The notes below the pieces were generated by a model that worked only from the letters and a program-made list of their open reading frames with translations, was not told where the DNA came from and ran no database searches. Below, piece by piece: positions 5,679-52,915 of a stretch of DNA of 64,000 bases (positions are counted from its first letter, which is position 1; each line of letters opens with the position of its first letter). The position numbers and the translations under genes were made by a program. This DNA is from Betaproteobacteria bacterium. Lineage in GTDB: Bacteria; Pseudomonadota; Gammaproteobacteria; Burkholderiales; Sulfuricellaceae. The DNA lies in contig JAJFTF010000017.1 of the NCBI GenBank assembly GCA_021373185.1, forward strand, positions 1 through 64,000, given 5' to 3'.

Positions 5679-6482
5679 TCAGGCAAACACGGCGTCGATG
5701 GCGTGATCTAGCGTATCGCGGATGTCCGCGTCGTCGGTGATGGGTCGCACCAGCGCCATGCGGCAGGCGTCGCGCGGCGCAACGCCGCCCTTGATCAGGG
5801 TGGCGGCATAGACCAGCAGGCGCGTCGAAATCCCTTCGTCGAGGCCGTGCCCCTTGAGGTTGCGCGCGGTCGTGCCGATTTTCACCAGCTTGGCCGCCAT
5901 GGCTTCATCCATGCCGGTTTCCCTGGCGACGATGCCGGTTTCCAGGGCAGCATCGGGATAATCGAACTCGAACGCGGTAAAGCGCTGCTTGGTGGATTGC
6001 TTCAAATCCTTCATCAGGTTCTGGTAGCCCGGATTGTAGGAAATCACCAGCTGGAAATCGGGATGCGCCTGGAGCAGCTCGCCTTTTTTGTCCAAGGGCA
6101 GGGTGCGGCGATGGTCGGTCAGTGGGTGGATCACCACCGTGGTGTCCTGGCGCGCTTCGACGATTTCATCCAGATAGCAGATCGCGCCGATGCGCGCGGC
6201 GGTGGTCAGCGGGCCGTCCAGCCAGCGCGTGCCGTTGGCGTCGAGCAGATAGCGCCCGACCAGGTCGGACGCCGTCATGTCCTCGTTGCAGGCCACGGTA
6301 ATCAGCGGCTTGTTGAGTTTCCACGCCATGTATTCGATAAAGCGCGACTTGCCGCAACCGGTCGGGCCTTTCACCATCACCGGCAGGCGCGCCGCGTAGG
6401 CCGCTTCGTAAAGCGCCACCTCGTTGCTTTGAACTTGATAGAACGGCTCTGTGTGAACCTTGTACTGGTCTTTATCGGTCAT
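5679..6482 (-). CDS. cbbQ: RuBisCO activase ATPase CbbQ (MoxR-type AAA+)
   Basis: About 267-aa AAA+ ATPase that works with CbbO to reactivate RuBisCO. Walker A is GPTGCGKS (about residues 39-46) and Walker B is CYLDEI (about 102-107). A sensor/arginine region follows, and the C-terminal helices are those of the MoxR/CbbQ/NorQ clade. The longest open frame begins at ATG 6503, but a GGAG sequence sits just before the double ATG at 6485/6482, and the CbbQ-like sequence begins there, so I place the start at 6482. It is immediately upstream of cbbO and downstream of the diguanylate cyclase gene (35 bp to that gene's stop). NorQ is the close alternative, but linkage to cbbM settles it. Confidence 0.95.
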
Positions 6483-6517
6483 CATTTTCTCCATACTCGT
6501 CATTTGCGTGCGTAGTG

Positions 6518-7447
6518 CTAACGGCAGACCACGCGGTTTCTGCCCGAATTCTTGGCTTCATACAGTGCCTCGTCCGCCCTCGCGATGACGGTCTCGGCAT
6601 CGTCGCCGTCGGCAGTCGTCGTCACGCCGACGCTGACAGTCACCGGAATGGGTGCTGTGCTGCGCTTGGTATGAATCTCCATTTCCGCGGTGATTTTTCT
6701 GATGCGCTCGGCGACTGGCTCGGCATCCTTCATGCCGGTCTCGGGTAGTATCATCGCGAACTCTTCCCCGCCGAAGCGGCCTACCTTGTCAGCGTCCCTC
6801 ATCATCGACTGGCATGCTGCCGCGAAGGATTTGAGCACCTCGTCGCCGGTCGGGTGGCCCCATTGGTCGTTGATTTTCTTGAAATGGTCAATGTCCATCA
6901 TCAGGAAAGACAGCGGGTGTTTGTAACGCTGTCCCCGCTTGATTTCCTCCTCCAGCGAATCAAGGATGGTGCGCCGGTTGTACAGGCCGGTCAGCGGATC
7001 TTCGCTGGATAGCTTCATCAGGCTGGCTTCCAGCGCCTTCCTTTTGGTGATGTCGGTGAATGTTCTGACAAACCCTTTTCCGGGCAACGGATTGTGGGTC
7101 AGCAGGCACCAGCGCGGCTCATTGTTGATTAGCTGGGGAAATTCAAATTCGAAAGTGGCCGGCTCGTCGAGTTGATAGATGGCGTAGTCCAGCATCTGCT
7201 GGTCTTGCCCGGTCGTGGCGGCCCATATTTTCAGGATATCCCGGAAGTCGACGCCCAGTTCGACTGTGCCGTGCGGCAGTTGAAACATCGCCTCGAAATG
7301 TCGGTTGAACGCCAATGTGCGATAGTCCGGCCCGACCACCACCATTCCCTGCGTGATGTGATCCAGAACAATATTCAGAACGTCCGCTGGCTGGGAAAAA
7401 TGGCTCTTGTCGAACGATTTCCTTTTTTCGCCAGATTCATCCGCCAT
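6518..7447 (-). CDS. PAS-GGDEF diguanylate cyclase in the RuBisCO cluster
   Basis: Makes cyclic-di-GMP from two GTP. A PAS domain (about residues 25-130) precedes a complete GGDEF domain. The A-site is GGEEF (226-230), and an intact RxxD inhibitory site lies five residues before it (217-220), so the enzyme should be active and product-inhibited. There is no membrane segment, so the signal is probably cytoplasmic. The start is taken at ATG 7447, which has an AAGGGA Shine-Dalgarno; an upstream TTG at 7477 and ATG 7462 are weaker. The gene lies between the cbbM terminator and cbbQ and is only 35 bp from cbbQ, which suggests joint transcription with cbbQO. Confidence 0.93.
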
Positions 7448-13333: not shown

Positions 13334-13981
13334 TTACGCAGTCGCTGGATTGCTTTGCAAATACTGAATCAAAGCCTGGAATTGAGACTGGGCCTTCCCA
13401 GTCGGATCAACGATGGAGTGGCTGAAATATCTCTCGATATTTGCCACCGTAATTTCCGTGTTGATCGGGTCGTAGGTTGTGCCGTTGGCCCCGCCGGCCA
13501 CATGCCCCATCGTCCTGATGAGCGCGATCTGGCTCATGCCTGCGGCGGCGGCCTTATCGCCGCTGGCCACCATTTTGTCATACAGCGTTTTTTCCGCAGG
13601 GCTGAGCATCGCCATGGTATTGACGAACCCACCGGCCTTTTGCATGTAATCGAGATCATCTGCTGTAAGCGTGTCGGGGCCATTGCCCCCTTTCATCTTG
13701 TCGCGGATTGCAGCGAACCTGGCGTCGTGGGCGAGCACGTAATCCGTTTCTTCCTGCGTTCTGCTCAAGGCGTCTTTGGATTTTATTTCGGCGAGCCTGG
13801 CGTCGATTGAATTGGCGGAAGATGGCGATGATGCCGCCGCGAGGGCATTTCGTGCCGCTTGCGAAATACTTACTGTACCGGCGGTTTTTGCCGGTTCACC
13901 GGCAGAGGTTTGCCGCCGGGACGGCAAGGTTGTGCTTGTCGCAATCGCCGGCGAGGCTGCATAAGGCAGTGTCGTTATCAT
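13334..13981 (-). CDS. Hypothetical protein with SISQAAR motif behind a sigma-54 promoter
   Basis: 215-aa protein that I do not recognise. The first ~55 residues are Ser/Thr/Ala-rich and probably unstructured, ending in the short motif TVSISQAARNAL (about residues 37-48). The rest (about 60-215) looks like an alpha-helical globular domain. No signal peptide or membrane segment. A similar xxSIS/xxNIS-Ala motif occurs near the N-terminus of the protein encoded at 16566-17432; such motifs are also seen in flagellum-associated proteins such as FlgM, so a motility or export link is conceivable but unproven. The start is ATG 13981 behind GAGGA; the longer frame from 13999 lacks a good site. A near-consensus sigma-54 promoter lies 35 bp upstream. 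Confidence 0.8.
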   Translation of the reverse strand: MITTLPYAASPAIATSTTLPSRRQTSAGEPAKTAGTVSISQAARNALAAASSPSSANSIDARLAEIKSKDALSRTQEETDYVLAHDARFAAIRDKMKGGNGPDTLTADDLDYMQKAGGFVNTMAMLSPAEKTLYDKMVASGDKAAAAGMSQIALIRTMGHVAGGANGTTYDPINTEITVANIERYFSHSIVDPTGKAQSQFQALIQYLQSNPATA

Positions 13982-14016
13982 GGTGTCCTCGTTCATCAAC
14001 GCAACTGACCCAGGTT

Positions 14017-14033
14017 ATGCAAATTACATGCCA
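14017..14033 (-). promoter_or_regulatory. Sigma-54 (-24/-12) promoter
   Basis: Minus strand TGGCATG-TAAT-TTGCAT, with the required GG-N10-GC spacing, 35 bp before ATG 13981. It differs at one base from the site at 15896-15912 in front of the next member of this gene set. Confidence 0.8.
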
Positions 14034-14197
14034 GAGCTATCTGGCCTGGATGGCGCTCACTGCCGTGATGGCAGTATTTCACCCCTCGTTCCGAGGTTTC
14101 GCTAGCGTTTTAATGCGGCATCATGGATGATGGCATCATTCCAAATGAGTATTCGCATTATTTCCCCTCTACACTGAGCGAACAAAAAGGTGATTTC

Positions 14198-15013
14198 ATG
14201 TCTTTCCTTTCCGGCATCAGCACGCTATCCGTTTTCGTGGTCGAACCCTCCAACGTTCAGTCGCAGTTTATCGATGCGCACCTGAAAACCATTGGCGTCC
14301 TGTCATCCAAAGTGTTCAAGGATGGCGCGAGTGCGTTGAAGGCGATGGGCGGGGAGGGCCGCCCCGACGTCGTCATCAGTTCCATGCATTTGCCGGACAT
14401 GACGGGGGGCGATCTGGTGGGGCGCATGCGCGCCGATGGCGAGACCAGAAATATCGCCTTCATTCTGGTGTCGAGCGAATCCAATCCTCATTACCTGGAG
14501 CCGGTGCGCCAGAGCGGATCGAGCGCCATTCTCGGCAAGCCGTTCACGGCTGAACAGTTGAAGAAAGCGCTGTCTACCGCCCTGGATTACCTTAGCCCGG
14601 AGGCCGTCAAACTCGATGTGGACAGCGATGTCGATCTGGAGTCGATCAAGGTGCTGCTGGTGGACGATAGCCGTATGGCGCGGGCGTTCATGCGTCATGT
14701 TCTGGAAAATCTGGGCGTCAAGAATTTTACCGAGGCCGAGGACGGCAAGCAGGCGGTGGCGATTATCCAGGAGCATTATTTTGATCTGGTGGTCACCGAT
14801 TACAACATGCCGGAAATGGACGGCAGGGAGCTGACCGAATACATTCGCACCCAGAGCTGGCAAAGCTCGGTGCCGATCCTCATGGTGTCGAGCGAGAGTA
14901 ACGAGGGCCGTCTGGCGGCAGTGGCTCAGGCCGGCGTATCCGGGGTGTGCGACAAGCCGTTCGAGCCGGCGGTGGTCAAGGGGCTGCTCGAGAAAATGCT
15001 CAGCGGCAATTAG
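14198..15013 (+). CDS. Tandem receiver-domain response regulator, first receiver degenerate
   Basis: 271-aa protein consisting of two CheY-like receiver domains and no output domain. The second (about residues 151-271) is canonical: acidic pair DD 157-158, phosphoacceptor Asp202 in TDYNMPEMDG and lysine in CDKPF. The first (about 10-130) keeps the fold and the lysine (LGKPF) but has Ser62 where the phosphoacceptor Asp should be and lacks the acidic pair, so it cannot be phosphorylated normally. Such stand-alone receivers often serve chemotaxis-like or phosphorelay systems. ATG 14198 with an AAAAAGGTGA site is preferred over the frame start at 14123. No kinase is adjacent. Confidence 0.9.
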   Translation: MSFLSGISTLSVFVVEPSNVQSQFIDAHLKTIGVLSSKVFKDGASALKAMGGEGRPDVVISSMHLPDMTGGDLVGRMRADGETRNIAFILVSSESNPHYLEPVRQSGSSAILGKPFTAEQLKKALSTALDYLSPEAVKLDVDSDVDLESIKVLLVDDSRMARAFMRHVLENLGVKNFTEAEDGKQAVAIIQEHYFDLVVTDYNMPEMDGRELTEYIRTQSWQSSVPILMVSSESNEGRLAAVAQAGVSGVCDKPFEPAVVKGLLEKMLSGN

Positions 15014-15103
15014 TGGCGCGAGGCAGAGATTTGAACGTGACAACCATGCCGGGCATGGGCGGATTTCGGCAGGCTGGCTGGCAAAAAGCCAATTGTCCAA
15101 CCG

Positions 15104-15448
15104 CTAATCCGCCACCAGCGTGATCCCGGTTTCAGCCGTCTTCTTGTCGATATCCAGCAGCACTTCGCAATACTCGCTTTGCGCTTCGACCGGCGTAGGG
15201 TCGTCCGCGCAATTGCAGCCGGCGATGATCCCGCTATAAAAAATGCCGGCTTTGACCTGAATGAAATTTTCGCTCTCCGAAACCGCGATGATTATCGCCC
15301 TGATATTGTCGTCCAGCGCATGGCTGCTGGCCGTCAGGCCTTGTTGCAAGGGAAGCTGATCGACCTTCATCCGCGTGATTTCATTCTTCAGGACATCCTC
15401 GAAATCAGGCGTCCCCCAGGCGTCTAATGCTTTAGTCAGTCGGATCAT
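15104..15448 (-). CDS. Hypothetical protein, second gene of a two-gene unit
   Basis: 114-aa cytoplasmic protein that I do not recognise. Its middle part alternates hydrophobic strands (IRAIIIAVS, FIQVKAGIFYSG). It is followed by a cysteine cluster CNCADDP and a further cysteine in EYCEV, which could bind metal. It is separated by 9 bp from the stop of the upstream 108-aa gene, so they are almost certainly co-transcribed. Codon usage looks like that of neighbouring genes. No signal peptide or membrane helix. Confidence 0.7.
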   Translation of the reverse strand: MIRLTKALDAWGTPDFEDVLKNEITRMKVDQLPLQQGLTASSHALDDNIRAIIIAVSESENFIQVKAGIFYSGIIAGCNCADDPTPVEAQSEYCEVLLDIDKKTAETGITLVAD

Positions 15449-15457
15449 CGTCGCGAG

Positions 15458-15784
15458 TCATTCCAGCGGCAGATAGAAAAACACAAAGCGGCCCTGTTCG
15501 ATATCCACCATCAGCTTGGCGCCATGATTCAGGCCGTAGTCCACATAGCCGGGCACGGCGCTGGTCAGATGACACTCGCTGGCATGCTGGGGCGATTCGA
15601 AATCGCGGTCGCGGTCATACCAGGAAAGCAGCATGAAACTTTTCAGACGCGATGCGGCCTCGGCATCGGCCAGCTTCATCGCTTCCCGGTAGTCCTGGAG
15701 CGGCGGCAGGGGGGCGAGCTTCGCCACCGTTACCCCGGAATAATCGGGCGCGGTGCGCGGCATGCGGCTTGGATTTTCATTCAT
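15458..15784 (-). CDS. Hypothetical protein, first gene of a two-gene unit
   Basis: 108-aa soluble protein of unknown function. Visible features are a proline-rich N-terminal stretch (LAPLPPLQDY), a helix with AMKLADAEAASRLK, a conserved-looking core LLSWYDRDRDFESP followed by ASECH, and a C-terminal beta pair ending in GRFVFFYLPLE. The histidine and cysteine after DFESP might be metal ligands. It is transcribed together with the downstream 114-aa gene and divergently from the sigma-54-driven gene at 15952. Confidence 0.7.
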   Translation of the reverse strand: MNENPSRMPRTAPDYSGVTVAKLAPLPPLQDYREAMKLADAEAASRLKSFMLLSWYDRDRDFESPQHASECHLTSAVPGYVDYGLNHGAKLMVDIEQGRFVFFYLPLE

Positions 15785-15895
15785 GGCAGACTTTCGGGAG
15801 AACGGTTCGCCTCATGATAAATAACTGATCGAGGTTTGAACAGGGCTGGTTTTCGATGGACGGAGCGCCAACGGATTTTGACGGGCGGCAGACCC

Positions 15896-15912
15896 TGGCA
15901 TGTTATTTGCAT
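15896..15912 (+). promoter_or_regulatory. Sigma-54 (-24/-12) promoter
   Basis: TGGCATG-TTAT-TTGCAT, a near-consensus -24/-12 element with GG-N10-GC spacing, 39 bp before ATG 15952. It is almost identical to the minus-strand site at 14033-14017, and both are followed by the same AAC. Confidence 0.82.
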
Positions 15913-15951
15913 AACACTCTCTGCAAGGCTTCTATTCGACGGAGATGTGGC

Positions 15952-16569
15952 ATGAATATCGACTCAATACAGCAATCCCATGGCATATCGCGCATTTCAA
16001 AGGCGGCAAAAAATGCCTCTGGCGGCGATAATTTGCCGGTAGCGGCAAGCAACAACGGCACGGCGGACACCGCCCATTTGTCGGTGCAGGGAAAGTCCCT
16101 GTCCGAATTGCCGCCGCTGATGTTGCCGACGCGCGAGAACGTGCAGAAATTATCCGCGTCGCTTGCCGACGACCTGAAAAACCTGTTCGCCCAGGCCGGC
16201 ATCAACCCCAATCCCGCTGTCGAATTTGACGTGGATTCATATACGGGAAAGGTCAGCGTCAAGGGAGACCGACCGGACGCGCAGCAAATCACCGAGTTGA
16301 TCAAGAAAAATCCCGATGTCGAGATGAAAATACACAATGTCGCCGCGATAAGCAGCCATGTCGTCGCAATGGGCAAAGCCATGGAGGCCGACACAGCGTA
16401 CCGGGCGGCTCAAAGCCCGGCGGAAATAAACAATGTGATCGCCAAATATGCCTCCGTTTACAGCGGCCAGACAAAGGTCACCGATTTTTCGCTGGTATTT
16501 AATGGCGCGGATATCCAGGTCAATGCGGATGGCGCTGCGTGGTTGAATTCCAAAACGGAGCGATCATGA
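15952..16569 (+). CDS. Hypothetical protein, sigma-54-driven, MLP-motif family
   Basis: 205-aa soluble protein that I cannot name. The N-terminal ~50 residues are low-complexity and contain repeated short Ser/Ala words (ISRISKAAK, AHLSVQGKSL). Then comes PPLMLPTRENVQKL (about 54-67), which closely resembles GPMMLPLLPENQKL in the next gene. The C-terminal half (about 85-200) has alternating strands and helices including EFDVDSYTGKVSVKG. Start ATG 15952 follows GGAGATG. The stop overlaps the next start (ATGA), so both proteins are likely made together. Confidence 0.8.
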   Translation: MNIDSIQQSHGISRISKAAKNASGGDNLPVAASNNGTADTAHLSVQGKSLSELPPLMLPTRENVQKLSASLADDLKNLFAQAGINPNPAVEFDVDSYTGKVSVKGDRPDAQQITELIKKNPDVEMKIHNVAAISSHVVAMGKAMEADTAYRAAQSPAEINNVIAKYASVYSGQTKVTDFSLVFNGADIQVNADGAAWLNSKTERS

Positions 16570-17432
16570 TTTCCACATCCGCCGTTCCGCCCAATGGAAA
16601 CGTCTACAGCAATGCCGCAACGAAATCTCGCCAGAATCTCGTCGGCGCTGTATCGATCAGCAATACCGGCGCCCGTAGCGAGGTGAACATTTCCGCTGCG
16701 GCACAGGAGCTGGCAAAAAACGATCAGGGCGCGCAGCCCCGTTTCAAATTGGCGGACTTCGTAACCGGATGGTTCAATAAAGACTTTCCGCAAGACGTCA
16801 TGGACGAGGCGAAAGCAAGGCTGGCCGATATCAAGGCCAATGGCAGGGTTGGGGCTGATGGCCCCATGATGTTGCCGCTATTGCCGGAAAATCAGAAATT
16901 GCTGGACAGCTTTCAGCAGGAAATGAAAACCATCCGTGACGCCGGTTGGGCGAATGCGACTCCGGCGCAATCCGAGCGGGTTAATTTGCTCATGAATTTA
17001 AGCATGCGCTTGCGCTTGGTGGGTTGGGAGAAGCCCATGACAGAAGCGGACGTGCAGCGGAAACTCGATGTTTCCTTCGCCATGGCAAAATTATCCCCTA
17101 ACGATCCTGTCCCGGAACCTGACGGCGATTCGGACAATGCCGCAGGCAAGATGATCGCCGAGATGGAGTCAAAAGCCGTGCCATCTGTTTGGCGTCAGCG
17201 CTGGCAAAAAGAGGGTTTGACCATGCCGAAGGACGTTGTTTCGTCGCGTGATCGCTCCATATTGCTGGATGTGGCGGAAGCCGCCGGGATCGGCGAGGAT
17301 GAATTTCTCGCCAAGCTCAGGGAACTGGCCGGTAACTTGAAGGGCAATTCCTTGACTCACGCTATTGAGAGCTTTATCAGCGAGCGTTACGTAGCAATGA
17401 CTGCGTCGCAAGAGGCTGAAGCTGTCGCGTAA
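16566..17432 (+). CDS. Hypothetical protein, partner of the preceding gene
   Basis: 288-aa protein of unknown function, translationally coupled to the upstream gene through an ATGA overlap. The N-terminal ~50 residues are low-complexity with AVSISNTGARSEVNISAAAQ, echoing the SISQAAR motif of the protein at 13334-13981. Next come DFVTGWF and the shared MMLPLLPENQKL motif (about 99-110). A long helical region follows (about 110-280), with a Pro/Asp-rich break near 180-190. There is no signal peptide, so any export would need a non-Sec route. The start is ATG 16566; the longer frame from 16539 would overlap the upstream gene without its own ribosome site. Confidence 0.8.
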   Translation: MISTSAVPPNGNVYSNAATKSRQNLVGAVSISNTGARSEVNISAAAQELAKNDQGAQPRFKLADFVTGWFNKDFPQDVMDEAKARLADIKANGRVGADGPMMLPLLPENQKLLDSFQQEMKTIRDAGWANATPAQSERVNLLMNLSMRLRLVGWEKPMTEADVQRKLDVSFAMAKLSPNDPVPEPDGDSDNAAGKMIAEMESKAVPSVWRQRWQKEGLTMPKDVVSSRDRSILLDVAEAAGIGEDEFLAKLRELAGNLKGNSLTHAIESFISERYVAMTASQEAEAVA

Positions 17433-52690: not shown

Positions 52691-52915
52691 GGAAATCTCC
52701 TTATTTGGTGGATAAATGTCAACCATTTGGGTTACAGCAAAAGCGATGCCAGACGTTGACCGGTAATTTAAAAATGCCGCAACACAAGGTAGCCGAAGGA
52801 TTTCAGGGATTTTCAGCAAAAGCGGCCAACGAAAAATCACCCGCACCATCTGCGCGGTCTGGCGCGAAGCGTGTCATTGCGCACACTTCACAGTGGCTTT
52901 GTGGCGGGCAAGATG

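Follow-up and report, generated by a model that had tools for sequence, protein, structure and literature searches.

What do two nearly identical sigma-54 promoter sites control when the genes behind them encode three uncharacterised proteins? The question is raised by contig JAJFTF010000017.1 of a Betaproteobacteria bacterium (assembly GCA_021373185.1), of which the first 64,000 nucleotides, here called the window, were analysed; one site precedes ORF1 and the other the ORF2-ORF3 pair (Table 1). A preliminary description of this DNA had assigned the three "similar-looking proteins" to a co-regulated RpoN regulon, perhaps motility-, biofilm- or export-related. We infer a narrower role: the flagellar regulon is the best-supported circuit and likely the one to which these genes belong, and export of their products through the flagellar gate is predicted, with a more modest degree of assurance.

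Both sites were found exactly as described, the 17-mers ending 35 bp (ORF1) and 39 bp (ORF2) upstream of the ATG, and the coupling of ORF2 with ORF3 is borne out by frames that share 4 bp. The sigma-54 consensus has GG and GC spaced 10 nt. The window sites exhibit this same spacing of the two doublets, together with the TGGCA...TTGC context and a fixed distance upstream of the start. The window by itself is not decisive for the reality of the promoters, because its 6 matches with at most 2 mismatches, against 2.93 expected, are reached or exceeded in 7/100 shuffles. Conservation of the site before homologues served as the test: the search returned 502 proteins for ORF1 (E <= 0.001), 24 for ORF2 and 100 for ORF3. 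Promoters were scored (maximum 22, threshold at least 20) in the stretch 25-60 bp upstream of an in-frame start, at 24 loci in named genomes, in further genomes and on two plasmids; L035, whose contig begins within the gene, and second entries of the same gene (in the pair L007/L040, and L105-L109, equal to L100, L041, L103, L101 and L102) were left out. The threshold was reached before 25/31 ORF1 genes, 10/12 ORF3 genes and 5/5 genes with the other bodies described below; for ORF2 the count is 1/1, the window's own gene, as the upstream DNA of its homologues was not fetched. As background, 138/670036 positions score at least 20, which corresponds to about 0.6% for a 31-position window, and 4/269 other ORFs do so; the promoter scoring itself admitted 36 distances and any in-frame start, with 1.5% per gene taken as background. 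The aligned sites follow TGGCATG-N4-TTGCAT, with GG and TGC kept in 27/27 sites, which were picked for having a site. According to the record titles, the loci belong to Sulfuricella, Zoogloea, Thauera, Azonexus, Marinobacterium, Sulfurimonas and others. Because the site is kept before 25/31 ORF1 and 10/12 ORF3 genes against about 0.6% expected, the two window sites are judged not to be due to chance, and the sites behave as promoters in these comparisons. Loss of the promoter from homologues, which the preliminary description had named as a reason to abandon the idea, is seen in a minority of the genes scored and does not overturn it. A sigma-54 gene set is strongly supported, since the promoter is kept before homologues where the neighbours differ. 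Inspection by eye of the 70 bp preceding the promoters showed no conserved activator site.

With regard to the proteins, the Ser/Ala motifs reported for the N-termini of ORF1, ORF2 and ORF3 were recovered, and their likeness is confined to this N-terminal module. In profile comparisons, the N-termini alone align between ORF1 and ORF3 (E 6e-7, probability 92%), ORF2 and ORF3 (E 3e-4, probability 40%) and ORF1 and ORF2 (E 0.022, probability 2%). The MLP...EN.QKL likeness noted earlier is visible in two sequences, but the profile alignment of ORF2 with ORF3 covers N-termini only and stops at LPT, without including that motif. A body shared among the three proteins was sought by the same comparison and not found. 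The module is rich in Ser, Ala and Thr and ends with V-x-I/L-S and a short Ala-rich stretch, and AlphaFold has low confidence over the N-termini of ORF1 and ORF3 (Table 1). A strict form of the motif fits 97/120 ORF1 homologues (the best 120 of 502), 15/24 ORF2 and 94/100 ORF3 homologues. When 395 genomes from the family to which an Azonexus metagenome-assembled genome belongs were scanned with a profile of the ORF3-type module alone, they yielded, besides ORF3-type genes, two additional kinds of body, L104/L128 and L115/L116/L122, with within-type pairs at E 1e-10 (L104-L128), 2e-9 (L115-L122) and 1e-5 (L115-L116). BLAST of the new bodies against ORF1-3, and among ORF1-3, gave nothing better than E 0.1, and the best cross-body hint, obtained with another tool, is L116 against an ORF1 homologue (E 0.014). 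The 30 module-search loci were assigned to types when the promoter outcome was already known; they comprise 11 of the ORF3 type, 5 with other bodies, 8 of a promoter-less motif type and 6 that are not recognisable members (L121, L126, L127, L129, L130 and L131). These six were kept out of the promoter counts, and no site of at least 20 is shown for them. L104-L109, 6/30, are seeds of the module profile, and 10/24 non-seed loci have the promoter; lower-ranked search rows without a locus were left out. One promoter type and one kind of N-terminal module thus appear to be joined to five dissimilar bodies.

Table 1. Features of the window discussed in the text
Feature	Position	Strand	Remarks
Sigma-54 promoter site of ORF1 (TGGCATG-N4-TTGCAT)	14017..14033	minus	TGGCATGTAATTTGCAT; conserved before homologues
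Sigma-54 promoter site of the ORF2-ORF3 pair	15896..15912	plus	TGGCATGTTATTTGCAT
ORF1, 215 aa, no cysteine	13334..13981	minus	residues 1-35 low-confidence in AlphaFold (likely disordered), helical body
N-terminal module of ORF1	13844..13981	minus	roughly residues 1-46; contains VSISQAAR
ORF2, 205 aa, no cysteine	15952..16569	plus	
N-terminal module of ORF2	15952..16101	plus	roughly residues 1-50; contains TAHLSVQGK
ORF3, 288 aa, no cysteine	16566..17432	plus	4 bp overlap with ORF2
N-terminal module of ORF3	16566..16724	plus	roughly residues 1-53; contains VNISAAAQ; AlphaFold low at 1-58

A natural chimera, L113 (genome G563), carries the promoter, the leader and about 34 codons of ORF1 on an ORF3 body. 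From just before the promoter to about codon 34, its best ORF1-gene match is 74% over 179 nt, and the remainder matches an ORF3 gene at 70% over 212 nt. The L113 protein reads the same as P0179, which represents 2 contigs. Since L113 pairs an ORF1 front with an ORF3 body, promoter, leader and module look as if they had been exchanged in nature as one piece, in this one case.

In the whole 2.77 Mb genome, TGGCAYGNNNNTTGCWT has 5 occurrences and the reversed pattern 0; for the wider TGGCAN6TTGCW the counts are 27 forward and 3 reversed, and in a control with the TGGCA and TTGCW words spaced one base wider they are 19 and 10. One of the three other strict-pattern sites lies 39 bp upstream of the fliK ATG. 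The same site type is located 80 bp upstream of fliE, beside which the flagellar cluster has an FlrB/FlrC-like pair (named from sequence and gene order). Two epsilonproteobacterial ORF1 carriers (L027 and L029), whose ORF1 homologues keep the promoter site, have one strong NtrC-type activator each, and the best NCBIfam match of both activators is FlgR (E 1.1e-187 and 7.8e-191, below the model cut-off). FliG is present in 28/30 ORF1 carriers versus 202/300 genomes of the order (Fisher p 0.0013, not corrected for relatedness, with several Zoogloea; the 300 include 6 carriers), and FlgM in 33/36 genomes, namely the 30 ORF1 carriers and 6 picked from module or ORF3 hits.

As for the fate of the proteins, FlgM, the anti-sigma-28 factor, likewise has a Ser/Ala-rich N-terminus followed by a V-x-L/I-S stretch; it differs in body and length, and no FlgM domain (PF04316) was found over the Pfam cut-off in ORF1-3 of the window. 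Among the ORF1 homologues, one matches Pfam FlgM with its N-terminus; this match (E 9.8e-4) stays under the cut-off and spans positions 1-36 of the 55 in the model. We built an N-terminal profile from 12 of 30 FlgM sequences, with a visible N-terminus and near-identical ones left out. After correction for composition, at least 8 bits were reached by 19/120 ORF1 homologues (the best 120 of 502), 11/24 ORF2 and 27/100 ORF3 homologues; among the controls, they were reached by 1/565 decoys, this one coinciding with an ORF1 homologue, and by 0/244 shuffled N-termini. The decoy filter passed some ORF1 homologues (both top-scoring decoys coincide in position with such genes), which makes this control conservative. 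Flagellar axial proteins are poor in cysteine. This residue accounts for 7/25906 residues in the ORF1 homologues (again the best 120 of 502), 9/4793 in the ORF2 and 10/28541 in the ORF3 homologues listed, and for 26/3463 residues in 11 window proteins.

Based on these observations, we favour, with moderate confidence, the view that the module-tagged genes are members of the flagellar regulon and that their products exit via the flagellar type III export gate. ORF1-3 would be transcribed together with the flagellar rod and hook genes, sigma-54 polymerase and a flagellar two-component activator of the FlrBC/FlgSR type opening the promoters at the stage of basal-body and export-gate assembly. The FlgM-like N-terminal module would then act as an export signal, and the dissimilar bodies would be accessory cargo acting on the flagellum or outside the cell.

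Another sigma-54 circuit, for pili, exopolysaccharide or nitrogen, might instead act through another enhancer-binding protein, the flagellar link being incidental. The 11 Sigma54_activat matches in the window's genome, several of them strong, leave room for such a circuit, and wider-pattern sites precede nifH-, nifB- and nifV-like genes and a pilin gene as well as fliK (names read from translations); several further wider-pattern sites lie inside genes and look coincidental. Besides the genomes of the two epsilonproteobacterial carriers, five were scanned for activators, the window's among them, and these have several strong ones each. We nevertheless consider this circuit rather unlikely, as in the two epsilonproteobacterial carriers the FlgR-like activator is the sole strong one and the ORF1 site is kept. 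It is also conceivable that the genes belong to the sigma-54 flagellar regulon but that the proteins stay intracellular, for example as FlgM-like regulators or export-gate competitors. Such a role would be consistent with the FlgM-like N-terminus and with the flagellar link, but it appears unlikely, given that FlgM is recognised no further than its N-terminal part (the sole Pfam match ends at position 36 of the model) and that the bodies are varied and poor in cysteine.

Several observations weigh against flagellar regulation and export, in addition to the manner in which the module-search loci were sorted. The co-occurrence with FliG is weak support, because FliG is common in the order. In carrier G321, whose gene retains the promoter (L016), neither FliG nor FlgM is seen; FliG is likewise not seen in G332, nor FlgM in G319 and G374, the completeness of these genomes not being told. 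A promoter score below 20 was obtained for 6/31 ORF1 genes, of which L011 and L028 have weakened-looking sites and L019, L031, L037 and the plasmid locus L099 have no site. The L011 promoter looks decayed, with an altered -12 TTGC and a retained -24 GG. Among the ORF3 homologues, the sole site of L040 lies 166-172 bp upstream, and that of L100 is weak. No further module gene was seen, by eye, behind the 27 TGGCAN6TTGCW sites of the window's genome. Likewise, 20 flagellar-cluster proteins used as queries, which included no flg, flh or fliD gene, revealed no flagellar structural gene near module genes; regulator-type genes alone matched, and the sole flagellar structural neighbour seen is the plasmid mini-FliD described below. 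ORF3 is present in just 3/30 ORF1 carriers, so that the three proteins do not make up a fixed set occurring together; the families have the appearance of separate cargo within a single regulon rather than of a complex. With the corrected FlgM profile, the majority of family members fail to reach 8 bits, and the strict motif fits only 3/30 FlgM sequences, several of them shortened by the start rule. A third alternative draws on points of this kind: the N-terminal motif could be a generic disordered segment with another partner, the proteins exiting by another route or not at all. Eight small proteins with a similar V-x-I/L-S motif (L117, L119, L120, L123, L124, L125, L132 and L133), most of which directly follow an apparent RND-type pump gene (RND permease end), have the promoter in 0/8 cases; the sigma-28 sites before them reach at most 9 of 12 letters of the consensus and are not convincing. 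Because these eight promoter-less proteins share a similar motif, the motif alone is not specific. The FlgM likeness also seems to be in part a matter of composition, because 104/244 shuffles reach 8 bits with the uncorrected profile. In contrast, no shuffled N-terminus reaches 8 bits once composition is corrected, and promoter and module go together in the ORF1-3 set as well as in the chimera, so that a generic segment is, in our judgement, very unlikely.

Distribution and structure were also considered. ORF1 is present in 6/300 genomes of the order and ORF3 in 2/41 genomes of nearest relatives. A conserved neighbourhood was rejected as a clue, no neighbour recurring in more than 4 of 25 loci, in a comparison made with a rough longest-frame gene caller that recovered ORF1 itself in 20/25 loci. 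Pfam and NCBIfam gave nothing significant for ORF1-3 and no axial-protein domains, the three alignments matched no Protein Data Bank sequence at E <= 1, and Foldseek of the ORF1 model had none at E <= 0.001 (best E 1.0). A phage origin was also rejected, as the ORF1 alignment has no relative in viral_contigs and the plasmid ORF1 homologue none in the phages collection.

On the IncP plasmid pTE_T100_2, the ORF1 homologue adjoins a small FliD_C protein (L099:6564-7277, Pfam E 3.6e-6), which lies between trfA and a Tn3-family transposase and counts in favour of the flagellar link; no ORF3 was found on plasmids. On pALTS33 (L098, IncP-1), at about 5899-6594, another ORF1 homologue has a promoter site, and its annotated start lies inside a longer frame. 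We tentatively raise the possibility of a portable "flagellar cargo cassette", in which recombination would place the sigma-54 promoter, the leader and an export signal of about 35 codons before unrelated bodies, and conjugative IncP plasmids would spread them. If this were true, any flagellated sigma-54 host could supply its flagellar export gate with new cargo, and the cassettes would define, by sequence, a group of accessory proteins that environmental Proteobacteria and epsilonproteobacteria deliver by the flagellum.

Comparable systems are known. PMC5223770 reports the flagellar co-expressed determinants (Feds), the Cia proteins and FlaC/FspA of Campylobacter jejuni as non-structural proteins secreted by way of the flagellum, states that the Feds depend on sigma-28, and mentions that these secreted proteins had yielded no conserved sequence. 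The proteins studied here resemble them as predicted non-structural flagellar cargo. Unlike in that set, a common module is recognisable here, and the sites seen before the genes are of the sigma-54 type. PMC7911332 describes export by the flagellar gate of proteins to which an N-terminal signal, for instance FlgM, has been fused. FlgR is described in PMC7064773 as a two-component regulator working with sigma-54 on rod and hook genes, and as members of the FlgSR/FlrBC/FleSR sigma-54 regulon that paper names rod, hook and flagellin genes. The module genes share with this regulon the sigma-54 sites, an FlrBC-like or FlgR-like activator in the genome and the same site type at fliK, whereas they differ in being unlinked accessory genes of patchy distribution. 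The open-access literature listings searched showed no description of this promoter-plus-module gene set; what appears new is the sigma-54 promoter joined to a recognisable, exchangeable N-terminal module, flagellum-linked accessory proteins being known already. A recurrent module with a linked promoter would allow non-flagellar cargo of the flagellum to be predicted from sequence, and the dissimilar bodies represent several new protein families to test. If the proteins are exported, the module would serve as a recognisable export tag for flagellar cargo.

Some further genes of the window deserve mention. The gene at 14198-15013, between ORF1 and ORF2, encodes a two-receiver protein; its top NCBIfam match, CheY, falls below cut-off and covers the second receiver. 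The protein is the tandem-receiver regulator that had been pointed out between the promoters; no role was found for it, and a receiver-like frame adjoins the ORF1 homologue in one genome of the same genus (L033). A DUF5619 protein (Pfam E 9.9e-26) is encoded at 15458-15784 on the minus strand, also between both promoters. Finally, a further sigma-54-like site, TGGCATCGCTTTTGCT, lies at 52736-52751 on the minus strand, 45 bp upstream of another gene, whose product exhibits an apparent signal peptide and Sel1/TPR-like repeats (domain read by eye).

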